37,171 nt of DNA from Balneolales bacterium (GTDB lineage Bacteria; Bacteroidota; Rhodothermia; Balneolales; Cyclonatronaceae): the NCBI GenBank assembly GCA_020832405.1, contig JAFIET010000037.1, positions 1-37,171 of the forward strand. The letters are read 5' to 3'. Below the pieces are notes generated by a model. That model was not told the origin of the DNA and did no database searches. It was given only the letters and a program-made list of their open reading frames with translations. Below are positions 4,126 to 12,317 of this stretch, one piece after another. A program made the translations under genes and the position numbers. Positions within the stretch are counted from its first letter, which is position 1. Each line of letters starts with the position of its first letter.

Positions 4126-6474
4126 TCAGAAGCGCCAGTTCAGCTCAAGGAAGAAGCGGCGGCCGGGTTCGGTGAGTTTGAAGCCTTCTTCATTTACCGC
4201 CGGGTTGATGTTCCGGTTCAGGTGTTCTGAGTAGGCTTCGTCAAAGAGGTTGCGCACGCCGGCGTTAAGGGTGAGGCTGCTCAGCACCCGGGTCCGCAGG
4301 CCGAGGTCGGCGAGCCAGAAGCCGTCGGTTTTTTGTTCGCCGAAACCGGTGTCGATACGATCCTGTGTGAGCACCCGCCGCAGGCCAATTTCGGGCATAA
4401 CCCGGCTGCTGAACAAGCCTGTTAGGGTAAGGCGGCTTTCAAAAGGCGGTATTTCCGCAACGGCGCTGCCGTCAGCGGTGTATTCGGAGTACGTATAGGC
4501 GGCACTCAGCCGGGCGCGCGCAACGGATGGCAGCCTGTATTCTGCAACGGCTTCGAAACCGGCTGTAAATACATCACCCCGGTTCTGAAACTCCATTACG
4601 CCCGGTGCCTCCGCCATGGGCTGCAGGTTTTCGTTTAGTACGCCGCCGATGTAATCCTGCATGAGGGCTGCGAAACTGTTGAGCTGCACGTTCAGGGCGC
4701 CGTCGGTGCTGCGGCTGCGGAACACAAGATCGAGCTGATTGGTGGCTTCCGGTTTCAGGTTCGGGTTGCCGGCGTACTCAAAAGCGCTGCGGCCGATGGC
4801 CAGGAAGTTGATGAAGCGCTCGGTGACATCCGGACTCCGCACCCCGCGACCGGCATACAGGCTGATGCCCGTGTTTGCGCTCAGCTCACGGCTCACACCG
4901 CCGCTCAGGCTCACATTAATATGTTCGCTTGCGGTATCGGTGCCCGCAAAACGGGGCGCAAGGTTCCGCGCTTCAGCGGTGTTGTAGTCGAGGCGGAAGC
5001 CTGCTGAAACCGTCCACGATTCATAGAAGTAATCAACGCCGGCAAAAAAGCCGGTATTTTGGATGATGGCATCCTGCCACAAATTGTAGGTCATGCTGTT
5101 TCCGGCATTGGGCCCGGCCTTAAGTTCAACAAACCGGGTGCCATCTATCTGCTGATTCGAGTAGGATGCGTTGAGGGTCCAGCGCAGTGTGTTCAGCATG
5201 CCGCCGGCTTCGGTTTGCAGCCCCCAGCTTTCAGTTTCCGCCAGGGCGACGGCATCCCGCATGGCGAAGTTGTCGCGCTCGTGGTTGTTCATTTCGTGAT
5301 CAACAAAGCTGTAGTAGGCATCGAAACTGAGCCCGCTGAAGCCCGCTATGTCAGCCGGATTCCAGCTGTAACCGCCTTTGAGTTTGAAGGTGTCGTCCAT
5401 GGCCATATCCATGGGCAGTGCCGGGAAATCGGCGTTTCGCACGTACGACTGAGAGAAGCCTGCATGCAGCTGATGCCCTTCGAACGGGCGGAAGTAAATC
5501 TCGGCCCCGAAATCACTGCTTTCGAAACCGGCCGGAACTTTGATGCCGTCGCCGCCGGTGTAATCGTTGGTAGCCGACAGTCCGCCGCTGAGCATGAGGT
5601 CATATCGGGCGTTGCCCAGGTGCAGCCGCGCATCGGTGATGCGGTTGCCCGTGTTGCTTTCAAGGGCAAGGCGCACATCACCCTGCACCCTGAATTGCGG
5701 GCTTGTCTCTGGTTTGTGCCGGATGAAATCGACCGTGCCGCCAAAAGCGGGACCAAAGCGAAGGGCGTGCGGACCGTGGTGGATTTCGACCCGTTCGATG
5801 TCGCTGAGGCGGATGTGTGAGGTGGGCGGATCCATACGGTTGGGGCAGGCGGCCGCGCTTGAGGCAACGCCGTCAACACGAATGTTGAGGCGGCTGCCGC
5901 TGTGGCCCCTAACAACGGGATCGATGCCGAAGCCGCCGCGCCTCACGCCGGAAACATTTTCCGCTTCGCGCAGGAAGGCACCCGAATCGATGGGCGTGAA
6001 GGCTGCCTCGCTGATATCAAGGCCGTTTTTAGGACGCCCGACGGTGTGATGCGCCACAACCGAGACAGGGCTCATGTTGAGGCGCACCGGGTCGAGCAGC
6101 AGTTCGGCGGGCAGCTCTGAGAGCGCCGCGAAGTTCACACTCAGGCTGCGGAAGCCAACATGCGAAACTTCGAGCGTGCCCGAAGTGAAGCCGGCCGGGA
6201 AGTGAAGCGAAAAGCTGCCGTCGGCCGCGCTAACGGCATGCACACCCGTGCTGCCTGTAACGCGAATGTGCGCATTCTGAAGCAGATGGCCGGTTTTGGC
6301 ACAGCGCACGATGCCGCGATAGGTTTCATTTTCGGTTTGGGCGCTTAGTGCAGCTGCATCATCAGCGGCAGCAAAAGTGCCGGAGGGAGTAGCCACAAGG
6401 CTGAGCCCGAGGAGGGGCAAAGCCACAAGCAGCATTTTTAATAGCTTGAATTTATTGGTGTTAAAGTCTTCCAT
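4126..6474 (-). CDS. OprC/NosA-like TonB-dependent copper receptor
   Basis: About 782 residues from the ATG at 6474. The frame stays open upstream to 6675, but that extension carries no signal sequence. Order: hydrophobic export signal (about 13-35), a carboxypeptidase-regulatory-like beta domain (52-132), plug (about 155-255), then a 22-strand-type barrel ending in aromatic NWRF. The plug has C210-P-N-R-M214 and the barrel has H393-E-M395. These match the CxxxM-HxM copper site described for Pseudomonas OprC, and the spacing (179 residues from M214 to H393) is close to OprC's. A methionine-rich run, PMDMAM (354-359), may guide copper. Predicted job: copper uptake across the outer membrane, powered by TonB. 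A Cys-rich exported protein is encoded 295 bases upstream on the same strand. Confidence 0.88.
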   Translation of the reverse strand: MEDFNTNKFKLLKMLLVALPLLGLSLVATPSGTFAAADDAAALSAQTENETYRGIVRCAKTGHLLQNAHIRVTGSTGVHAVSAADGSFSLHFPAGFTSGTLEVSHVGFRSLSVNFAALSELPAELLLDPVRLNMSPVSVVAHHTVGRPKNGLDISEAAFTPIDSGAFLREAENVSGVRRGGFGIDPVVRGHSGSRLNIRVDGVASSAAACPNRMDPPTSHIRLSDIERVEIHHGPHALRFGPAFGGTVDFIRHKPETSPQFRVQGDVRLALESNTGNRITDARLHLGNARYDLMLSGGLSATNDYTGGDGIKVPAGFESSDFGAEIYFRPFEGHQLHAGFSQSYVRNADFPALPMDMAMDDTFKLKGGYSWNPADIAGFSGLSFDAYYSFVDHEMNNHERDNFAMRDAVALAETESWGLQTEAGGMLNTLRWTLNASYSNQQIDGTRFVELKAGPNAGNSMTYNLWQDAIIQNTGFFAGVDYFYESWTVSAGFRLDYNTAEARNLAPRFAGTDTASEHINVSLSGGVSRELSANTGISLYAGRGVRSPDVTERFINFLAIGRSAFEYAGNPNLKPEATNQLDLVFRSRSTDGALNVQLNSFAALMQDYIGGVLNENLQPMAEAPGVMEFQNRGDVFTAGFEAVAEYRLPSVARARLSAAYTYSEYTADGSAVAEIPPFESRLTLTGLFSSRVMPEIGLRRVLTQDRIDTGFGEQKTDGFWLADLGLRTRVLSSLTLNAGVRNLFDEAYSEHLNRNINPAVNEEGFKLTEPGRRFFLELNWRF

Positions 6475-6769
6475 CGTAAAAAAATATTTCAAATGAGAGG
6501 TCGCATGAATAGCCGGCAGGGAACACGGATCCTGCATCATAGCCGTACCAACGGCATGATTTGGGTCCCCAAACCGGGATCTGATTGTGAGCGGGCCGCG
6601 CAGCTCCGGCACCTGATTACGGCTTGTTTGCCAGAATCGGGCTGATGCCTGTTTTCGAATCCGGACGCACTTCACCCGTGAAATTGCGGAATCTCAGCCG
6701 GGAAGGCTGATGCGGGGTGATGCGATTCTTGCCGGAAACAGGGTTCAGCGGAGCAAGACGCGGCTGTCT
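6475..6769. other. Gap between Cys-rich gene and receptor gene
   Basis: These 295 bases hold no gene I can support. The receptor's reading frame runs open as far as 6675, but that extension lacks a signal sequence. The 20 bases just upstream of the chosen ATG are A+T-rich. I see no clear terminator, so read-through from the Cys-rich gene into the receptor gene is possible. Confidence 0.4.
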
Positions 6770-7327
6770 TCAGGCGACGGGAGGATGGAAGACCTCATCG
6801 GGGAAGGCGGGATGGGTCTGCATTAGGTGGAAGCTTTGGCAAAGCCTGCGGAATTCGGGCGCTGCCGGCTCAGGAGAGCTGAGCAGGGTCACTTTATCGA
6901 GCGGCTTTATCAGGCCGTCGGTTTGGGCCGGGTCGCTGTGACCGCAGCTGCACATTTGGGCACTGTGGCCTTTGGCAAGTTTGGTTTCGGACTGCGCATC
7001 CGGGGCATCCTGTGCATCCTGCGTATCAGCACTGCCAGAGCAGCAGTCCGCTGCCTGAGCTGCATCAGCGGAAATCAGGGAGGGCGCAAGCAAGGGGATG
7101 CCGGCGGAGTTGAGCTGTGATGTGCCGGCATTGGTGCCCGGTTCAGCGTCCGGTTCGGAATCGGTGTGGGCACATCCGCAGGAAGTTCCGCAGGTACAGA
7201 GGATGTTGCTGCAGCCGTTACCGGCGAACTTCGCACCCACAAACAAACCCACACGGTTCACCTCTGCCACTGAAAACAACAGCGTAAATACAAGGGTGAT
7301 GCGGAGAAGGTTTTGGAGAAGCTTCAA
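6770..7327 (-). CDS. Exported Cys/His-rich protein by copper receptor
   Basis: 185 residues from a TTG start; no upstream in-frame ATG is available and the only internal Met near the front is absent. Residues 3-20 are hydrophobic, as in a signal peptide. Ten cysteines are clustered: C39, C44, C46, C50, C52, the pair C95-C96, C126, C128 and C163. Histidines lie beside them (H54, H130), and the end reads FHPPVA. The clusters CTCGTSCGCAH and MCSCGH look like soft-metal (Cu(I)-type) ligands. The middle (55-120) is Ala/Asp/Gln-rich and probably disordered. The family is not recognised with certainty; small Cys-rich exported proteins beside TonB receptors are common in Bacteroidota. Copper capture or sensing for the downstream receptor is inferred from position and composition only. 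Confidence 0.7.
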   Translation of the reverse strand: MKLLQNLLRITLVFTLLFSVAEVNRVGLFVGAKFAGNGCSNILCTCGTSCGCAHTDSEPDAEPGTNAGTSQLNSAGIPLLAPSLISADAAQAADCCSGSADTQDAQDAPDAQSETKLAKGHSAQMCSCGHSDPAQTDGLIKPLDKVTLLSSPEPAAPEFRRLCQSFHLMQTHPAFPDEVFHPPVA

Positions 7328-10349: not shown

Positions 10350-11219
10350 ATGTCCGCCTCCAAAAAGGTAACCCTCGGGCTTATTCAGACTTCCTCCGTG
10401 CATGCGCATGCGCCCAATGTTGAGAAAACCTTCACCCACATCAGAGAAGCAGCTGCCCGCGGGGCACAGGTGATCTGCACGCAGGAGCTGTACACCTCCG
10501 ATTATTTCTGCCAAACGCACGATGAGGCGCACTTCGATCTTGCCGTTGAAATTCCCGGGGAGCTTACTGCTCAGACCGGTGAGCTTGCCAAAGAGCTGGG
10601 CGTTGTGATCATTTCGTCGCTGTTTGAGAAGCGCGCACCGGGCGTATATCACAACACCGCGACGGTACACGACGCCGATGGGAGCATGTTAGGAATCTAC
10701 CGCAAGATGCACATCCCGGAAGATCCCGGCTTTCATGAAAAATTTTATTTCACACCCGGCGACACCGGTTTCAAAGTTTTTGACACCCGCTTCGGACGCC
10801 TCGGCGTGCTGATCTGCTGGGATCAGTGGTTCCCGGAAGCGGCGCGGCTCACGGCCATGCAGGGTGCCGAAATTCTGTTTTACCCCACGGCCATCGGCGT
10901 GCTGCCCGACGAGCCTGAAGCCCTCAAACGCGAATTTATGGATGCCTGGGAAATCATGCACCGCAGCCATGCCGTAGCCAACGGCTGTTATGTAGCGGCC
11001 GTGAACCGGGTCGGGCAGGAAGGTGACATCCGGTTCTGGGGCGACAGTTTTGTGTCAGGTCCGTTCGGGCAGATGCTCGCGCAGGCCGGCGATCAGCACG
11101 AAATTCTGCTCGCGGAGTGCGATCTCAGCCTGATCGAAAAACAGCGCCGTACATGGCCCTTCCTCCGCGACCGTCGCATCGATGCCTACGACGGCCTGCT
11201 GAAACGCCTCGGTCGTTGA
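10350..11219 (+). CDS. aguB: N-carbamoylputrescine amidase
   Basis: 289 residues, the usual length. It is a nitrilase-superfamily enzyme with the Glu-Lys-Cys triad: Glu46 (TQELYTSDYF), Lys119 (YRKMHIPED) and Cys156 (ICWDQWFPEAAR). The DQWFPEAAR context and GFHEKFYF segment are typical of AguB, which splits N-carbamoylputrescine into putrescine, ammonia and CO2. The next gene, 36 bases downstream, is agmatine deiminase, which makes this enzyme's substrate, so the pair completes putrescine synthesis from agmatine. No speA-like arginine decarboxylase is present in the window. Cytoplasmic. Confidence 0.93.
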   Translation: MSASKKVTLGLIQTSSVHAHAPNVEKTFTHIREAAARGAQVICTQELYTSDYFCQTHDEAHFDLAVEIPGELTAQTGELAKELGVVIISSLFEKRAPGVYHNTATVHDADGSMLGIYRKMHIPEDPGFHEKFYFTPGDTGFKVFDTRFGRLGVLICWDQWFPEAARLTAMQGAEILFYPTAIGVLPDEPEALKREFMDAWEIMHRSHAVANGCYVAAVNRVGQEGDIRFWGDSFVSGPFGQMLAQAGDQHEILLAECDLSLIEKQRRTWPFLRDRRIDAYDGLLKRLGR

Positions 11220-11255
11220 TTCAAATAACATCATTCCTCAAAAAAAGTAACGCTT

Positions 11256-12317
11256 ATGTCATCCCAAACGCCTGCTTCCCTCGGCTTCCGCATGCCTGCC
11301 GAGTGGGATAAGCACAGCGGAACCATGCTCAGCTGGCCCTGCAACCCGGAAACCTGGCCCGGCGAGCGCCTCGATCGCGTAGAAAAAGTCTTCACCCGTA
11401 TCGTGCAGGAAGTCACCAAAAGAGAGCATCTGCATCTCATCATTAATGATGACGCTACCCTTGAGCGTGCCGGGGCCTGCCTCGGCGCGCTGATTCAGGA
11501 TTCGGCGCGCATCACCCTGCACAAGCGCACGAGCAACGATTTGTGGGCGCGTGACTTCGGCCCGATTTTCGTGCGGAATCAGATCAGCGGAATGTACGCC
11601 ATCACCGATTGGGAGTACAATGCCTGGGGCGGCAAGTATCCTCCCTTCGACTCTGATAACGGCGTGCCCGGCTGGTTCAGCGCCAAATACGGCATTCAGC
11701 GGTTTAAGCCGGGAATCGTGCTTGAGGGCGGCTCCATCGAAACCAACGGCGACGGCGTGATGCTTACGACCGAATCGGTGCTGCTCAACCCGAACCGGAA
11801 TCCGGAACTCAGCAAGGCGCAGATTGAGCAGTATCTGAAAGACTGGCTGGGTCAGGAAAAAGTGATCTGGCTCAAAAACGGCCTTGCCGGCGATGATACC
11901 GACGGGCACATCGACGACCTTAGCCGTTTTCTCGATTCCCGCACCATCATGACCATGGTAACGGATGACAAGGATGATGTGAACTACGAAACCCTTCAGG
12001 AAAACTACGAGCTGCTCAAATCCGCAACCGATCAGCGCGGGGAGCCTTTTGAAATCGTGACCGTGCCCATGCCGCAAACGAGAGTGGAGGAAACAACGGT
12101 TGACGGCTCCGAGCATGTGCCGGCGAGCTATGCTAACTTTTATTTTGTAAACGGGGCCGTTCTGCTGCCGGTCTATGATCCGCGTTACGACGAGCAGGTC
12201 ATAACTCTGTTCAAAAAACACCTTCCGGATCATGAAATTGTGGCTATACCCTGCGCCGACCTCGTTTGGGGGCAGGGCAGCATTCACTGCATCAGTCAGC
12301 AGCTGTACGGGCTGTAA
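11256..12317 (+). CDS. aguA: Agmatine deiminase
   Basis: 353 residues, full length for the family. It shows the guanidino-modifying fold: NDLWARDFGP (94-103), LEGGSIETNGDG (156-167), DDTDGHID (213-220, catalytic His218) and the nucleophile Cys345 in GSIHCISQQ close to the C-terminus. It converts agmatine to N-carbamoylputrescine plus ammonia, feeding the AguB enzyme encoded just upstream. The two genes are probably one transcript, ended by the hairpin that follows at once. Confidence 0.94.
   Translation: MSSQTPASLGFRMPAEWDKHSGTMLSWPCNPETWPGERLDRVEKVFTRIVQEVTKREHLHLIINDDATLERAGACLGALIQDSARITLHKRTSNDLWARDFGPIFVRNQISGMYAITDWEYNAWGGKYPPFDSDNGVPGWFSAKYGIQRFKPGIVLEGGSIETNGDGVMLTTESVLLNPNRNPELSKAQIEQYLKDWLGQEKVIWLKNGLAGDDTDGHIDDLSRFLDSRTIMTMVTDDKDDVNYETLQENYELLKSATDQRGEPFEIVTVPMPQTRVEETTVDGSEHVPASYANFYFVNGAVLLPVYDPRYDEQVITLFKKHLPDHEIVAIPCADLVWGQGSIHCISQQLYGL

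Follow-up and report, generated by a model that had tools for sequence, protein, structure and literature searches.

A cysteine-rich leader peptide proposed to gate an OprC-like copper receptor gene by start-codon masking in Balneolales

The window (the whole stretch of 37,171 nt analysed here, from a Balneolales bacterium) carries on its minus strand the gene of an OprC-like TonB-dependent receptor, preceded by a small Cys-rich open reading frame (the uORF). The features are listed below in the direction of transcription, with the basis of each in parentheses.

6770..7327, minus strand: Cys-rich exported uORF of 185 aa with a TTG start, proposed copper-sensing arrest leader (ORF calls; homologues upstream of the same receptor)
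7172..7213, minus strand: N-terminal Cys cluster, C39-x4-C-x-C-x3-C-x-C52 (alignment)
6944..6952, minus strand: C126-S-C128, the CxC located 53 residues ahead of PP and proposed to sense copper (alignment)
6779..6796, minus strand: conserved C-terminal EVFHPP, two residues short of the stop codon and proposed to arrest the ribosome (alignment)
6784..6796, minus strand: anti-start sequence GAGGTCTTCCATC within the EVFHP codons (13-bp helix with the receptor start)
6475..6769, minus strand: intergenic leader of 295 nt (leader fold z -3.1)
6463..6475, minus strand: start region of the receptor gene, GATGGAAGACTTT, which the anti-start would mask (predicted pairing)
4126..6474, minus strand: OprC-like TonB-dependent copper receptor of 782 aa (TIGR01778, Pfam barrel and plug, AlphaFold2, Foldseek)
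5833..5847, minus strand: C210-P-N-R-M214, plug half of the predicted copper site (aligned to OprC C143/M147; invariant)
5398..5412, minus strand: M355-D-M-A-M359 (Met355 aligned to Met286 of the OprC methionine track)
5290..5298, minus strand: H393-E-M395, barrel half of the predicted copper site (aligned to OprC H323/M325; invariant)

Elsewhere in the window, at 10350-12317 on the plus strand, a carbon-nitrogen hydrolase gene is followed by a PAD_porph (agmatine-deiminase-like) gene; judging from the family matches, this is probably an ordinary polyamine-pathway pair.

The receptor start was assigned to the ATG at 6474 (MEDFN...), and the residue numbering of the earlier note was reproduced from this position. 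An 849-aa ORF beginning with GTG at 6675 was rejected as over-extended, since the ATG start matches the receptor of a same-genus relative, L045, which begins with MEDYY (MED[FY]). The receptor frame stays open for about 200 nt on the 5' side of the likely ATG (6675-6475, minus strand), and automatic annotation may therefore misplace the start and hide the leader. Among the NCBIfam models, TIGR01778 (TonB-dependent copper receptor) gave the best match, with a score of 220.2 bits that lies below the curated equivalog cut-off of 472.45 bits. Both the barrel and plug domains of Pfam were matched, and the plug is preceded by an N-terminal carboxypeptidase-regulatory-like segment, for which the Pfam match was below its cut-off. 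OprC was the first match in a phmmer search against PDB (E 3e-34). The AlphaFold2 model (pLDDT 84) retrieved OprC in the first 28 places of a Foldseek search (TMt 0.84-0.88), the identity over the fold match being 22-24%. As judged by sequence and predicted structure, the receptor is OprC-like, sharing site and fold with OprC as a member of a distant subfamily.

The agreement extends to the copper site. In the phmmer alignment, C210/M214 fall on C143/M147 and H393/M395 on H323/M325 of OprC, and Met355 falls on Met286, a methionine-track residue (for the roles of these OprC residues, see PMC8610252). C210, M214, H393, M395, Met355 and Asp356 were all invariant in an alignment of 31 homologues, Proteobacteria included. 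The CxxxM and HxM pair that the earlier note had recognized as that of OprC is thus in register and invariant, and its Met-rich run was found again, with Met at 355, 357 and 359. The same note had asked whether the four ligands might lie far apart; at the level of sequence register and overall fold, they are placed as in OprC. Agreement of this kind at the site lies well outside what chance would give. Four distant receptors (L040, L041, L043 and L044) keep HxMxN and have no CxxxM in the plug, and a PP-ending Cys-motif ORF is still present upstream of each; these receptors may have a different metal site or ligand.

The uORF directly upstream of the receptor contains, as noted earlier, ten Cys (positions 39, 44, 46, 50, 52, 95, 96, 126, 128 and 163), and six His were counted. 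The TTG start and the N-terminal hydrophobic segment, indicating putative export, are plausible. Neither the uORF nor its relatives matched any family in Pfam or NCBIfam, and the uORF gave no match to PF11162 (DUF2946); for one relative, a subtilase-cytotoxin-B-like model scored 19.6 bits against a cut-off of 257 and was discarded as noise. A search of the complete genome with the DNA pattern for EVFHPP gave a single occurrence.

The nearest relatives of the locus are in Balneolales. The Cys-rich ORF was detected by sequence in 6 of 129 Balneolales genomes, always beside the receptor. When related FCB (Bacteroidota/Balneolales) receptors with at least 600 nt of upstream sequence were examined, 45 of the 49 were preceded on the same strand by an exported Cys-motif ORF ending with x-Pro-Pro, mostly within 300 nt of the receptor and in a few cases up to 1.3 kb away. 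As a control, of 196 further long ORFs from these loci, 4 passed the strict filter, all four being receptor relatives, and such an ORF lay upstream of none of the roughly 187 unrelated long ORFs. The two genes keep together in relatives, contrary to the lack of co-occurrence that the earlier note had named as a refutation.

The most conserved element of the Cys-rich ORF is its extreme C-terminus: the Balneolales ORFs end near the stop codon with [DES][IV]F[HR]PP. Many relatives of the window uORF are shorter than it, at 120-150 aa. In all 19 Balneolales ORFs, 52, 53 or 54 residues separate the last CxC from PP, while the distance between the first Cys and the CxC ranges from 35 to 87 among the complete ones. 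The 30 residues before FHPP have little sequence in common. Close relatives keep the N-terminal Cys cluster as well.

A second family of small exported proteins, with a C-x9-C-x-G-x-C motif and ending with F[HQK]PP or PPP, was observed before OprC-like receptors across Bacteroidota (upstream ORFs of L065, L066, L083, L084, L121 and L125-L138). This family is unrelated to the CxC uORFs, matches no Pfam or NCBIfam model, carries the motif 57-69 residues before PP, and is present in 44 of 129 Balneolales genomes, there also beside other genes. In Marinomonas, a true DUF2946/CruR protein (PF11162 match) sits before the OprC-like gene. Common to these upstream families are the N-terminal hydrophobic segment, the Cys motif, the terminal PP and the OprC-like gene that follows.

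In the window, the end of the uORF is the best partner of the receptor start region within 1.2 kb. GAGGTCTTCCATC and GATGGAAGACTTT are predicted to form a helix of 13 bp (-19.6 kcal/mol; shuffle p 0.0006), which includes the receptor start codon and is present in the minimum free energy fold of the 421-nt leader. With PP in its P and A sites, a stalled ribosome would sit over the whole anti-start, and masking of its footprint raised the unpaired probability of the ATG from 0.03 to 0.33. Counting against such a switch, the loop between the two arms is long, about 300 nt. A search of the leader against Rfam gave only one match, a viral pseudoknot below threshold, which was taken as chance.

Elsewhere in Balneolales, the pairing with the receptor start is made by the uORF stop codon and the adjoining nucleotides, in the combinations TAA-TTATG, TAG-CTATG and TGA-TCATG. 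The pairing between uORF end and receptor start averaged -14.6 kcal/mol for partners from the same locus versus -8.9 kcal/mol for cross-locus pairs, reached p<=0.01 in 14 of 18 loci, and was never attained with permuted partners; control tandem gene pairs gave a flat p distribution (2 of 48 at p<=0.05). The covariation score was 0.425 against 0.289 +/- 0.048 for shuffled alignments (1 in 500), a value that supports the helix short of proof, since it is based on nine distinct short rows with the register set by hand. On average, ATG accessibility was 0.12 before and 0.30 after footprint masking (Wilcoxon p 0.002), even though at several loci masking failed to free the ATG. The pairing was weak at L056 and L058 and not significant at L064, a same-genus relative. 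For the CxGxC family, the start pairing was mostly at p>0.05, and the start-masking claim is therefore not extended to it; the Marinomonas DUF2946-oprC pairs gave no significant pairing at ATG starts. A generic hairpin immediately after the uORF was visible in one clade with a mean z of only -1.1, and for this reason is not claimed as general. In some Rhodohalobacter-like loci (L050 at 6274-6350, and the intergenic regions of L056, L059, L074 and L077), an extra hairpin, GCTGC...GCAGC, was observed 3' of the uORF stop codon, within the loop closed by the stop/start helix.

We propose that the two genes form a copper-import unit in which an arrest leader peptide gates the OprC-like receptor in cis by start masking, a reading to which we give a probability of about 0.68. 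The assignment as a leader peptide derives from the F[HR]PP end, the near-constant CxC-PP distance and the pairing of the uORF 3' end with the receptor start. The receptor would bind ionic copper at C210, M214, H393 and M395, and the exported leader peptide encoded by the first gene would control the second gene in cis. Under scarce copper, the ribosome would stall at the C-terminal F-H-P-P and cover the anti-start, leaving the receptor start codon free for synthesis of the receptor; copper bound on the nascent CxC would relieve the stall, the helix would re-form and the receptor would be turned off. The CxC, 53 residues behind the stall point, would in a chain undergoing export have reached or passed the translocon exit, and a fixed length without a fixed sequence between CxC and PP is the pattern expected where a nascent chain runs through the ribosome tunnel. 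We infer both the stalling at F[HR]PP and copper as the ligand of the nascent CxC. The sign of the response, copper shutting the receptor off, is suggested by the function of the receptor as an importer and, by analogy, by the repression that copper exerts on oprC and the CruR operon. Two further observations count against the scheme: F[HR]PP is absent from the tested RAPP-like motifs, and a pure CxC sensor has no need of the conserved N-terminal Cys cluster, which may supply extra ligands or serve a second role.

The earlier note had instead read the Cys-rich ORF as a copper-capture protein. A stable exported capture protein or chaperone that delivers copper to the receptor or buffers it, the helix then reflecting ordinary translational coupling, would account for the ten Cys and the C-x-C-x3-C-x-C cluster kept in close relatives, as well as for the adjoining copper receptor in every relative that possesses the ORF. 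Against this stand the poor conservation of a fixed-length sequence between the motifs, the concentration of conservation at the extreme C-terminus, and the occupation of the same site before homologous receptors by the unrelated PP-ending CxGxC family, something normal for leader peptides but surprising in a specific binding partner. We consider a capture protein unlikely; the C-terminal motif, the CxC spacing and the start pairing favour a sensor acting in cis. Of the joint copper role once suggested for the two genes, the OprC-like receptor and the conserved pairing of the genes stand, while the uORF as capture partner finds no support.

If the uORF is regulatory, its main output could be transcription attenuation through Rho, as for CruR (PMC9426467), rather than start masking. 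The long intergenic region of the window (295 nt) would fit, but many relatives have short ones (66-112 nt), the covarying stop/start helix favours control of initiation, and the Marinomonas DUF2946-oprC pairs are without that helix; attenuation as the main output is slightly less probable still than a capture protein. A CutF-like sign, in which copper promotes stalling and the receptor is copper-induced, is very improbable: in CutF, the same parts occur together with a stem-loop that covers the initiation site of the next gene (PMC9973294), but a copper-induced importer makes little physiological sense and copper represses oprC (PMC8610252, PMC9426467).

For the preferred reading, start masking by an arrest leader, CruR and CutF serve as precedents. 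The earlier note had thought that a Cys-rich capture protein paired with an OprC-like receptor would be new for the phylum. In general, a Cys-motif ORF ahead of an OprC-type gene is not new: in Pseudomonas, oprC follows CruR (DUF2946) (PMC9426467), and ORFs of the CutF-like type have been listed in Bacteroidota, with TonB-like genes as frequent neighbours (PMC9973294). The arrest by CruR has been demonstrated in vitro, and RAPP/RGPP copper uORFs were missing from Bacteroidota in one survey (PMC12992588). The window uORF is more likely a copper-sensing arrest uORF of the CruR/CutF kind, different from DUF2946, with an F[HR]PP motif and start-codon masking. A copper-sensing leader switch is known in Proteobacteria and appears to be undescribed in the Balneolales/Bacteroidota group; among the papers searched, largely open-access ones, none dealt with Balneolales, with stop-start pairing or with an arrest motif of the F[HR]PP type. 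The balance tilts slightly toward a new class of arrest peptide (F[HR]PP, with CxC about 53 residues upstream) and helix-gated copper import in Balneolales, together with a separate CxGxC leader family. If true, the CxGxC leaders in the same place across Bacteroidota would mean that nascent-chain copper sensing has arisen or diversified repeatedly. Outside Proteobacteria, little is known of how copper is acquired and how this is controlled, and the Balneolales loci suggest that copper leaders exist in Bacteroidota with another arrest motif. The output suggested by the stop/start helix is simple and open to test; the loci also caution that a small Cys-rich ORF next to a metal receptor may regulate in cis and need not encode a metal-binding protein.

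Among the known systems, OprC/NosA of Pseudomonas (TIGR01778) shares with the window receptor the CxxxM plug and HxM barrel motifs, the TonB receptor fold and the methionine equivalent to Met286 (Met355), and oprC also has a Cys-motif uORF upstream (PMC9426467). The window receptor differs in its score (220 against the 472-bit cut-off), its 22-24% identity and its extra N-terminal segment. CruR of Bordetella pertussis is likewise a short exported Cys-motif ORF that heads a TonB-receptor operon, with the leader gene directly upstream of the receptor gene on the same strand, Pro-Pro near the C-terminus and a fixed spacing from Cys motif to PP. CruR, however, belongs to DUF2946, has its CxxC about 45 residues before RAPP where the window uORF has CxC 53 residues before FHPP, and uses Rho termination in place of the predicted start-masking helix. 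CutF of Rhodobacter capsulatus resembles the window uORF as an exported sensor with a C-terminal PP and a structure, here a computed one, over the downstream initiation site. In contrast to CutF, which precedes a multicopper oxidase, the window uORF precedes an importer, and the opposite sign of response is expected; it also exceeds, with 185 aa, the filter of the CutF-like list (<150 aa), and the pairing engages the arrest or stop codons of the uORF itself. In SecM-secA, a stalled ribosome exposes the RNA that conceals the initiation site of the next gene (summarised in PMC9973294), but the signal there is export status instead of copper, and the SecM arrest sequence ends with RAGP.
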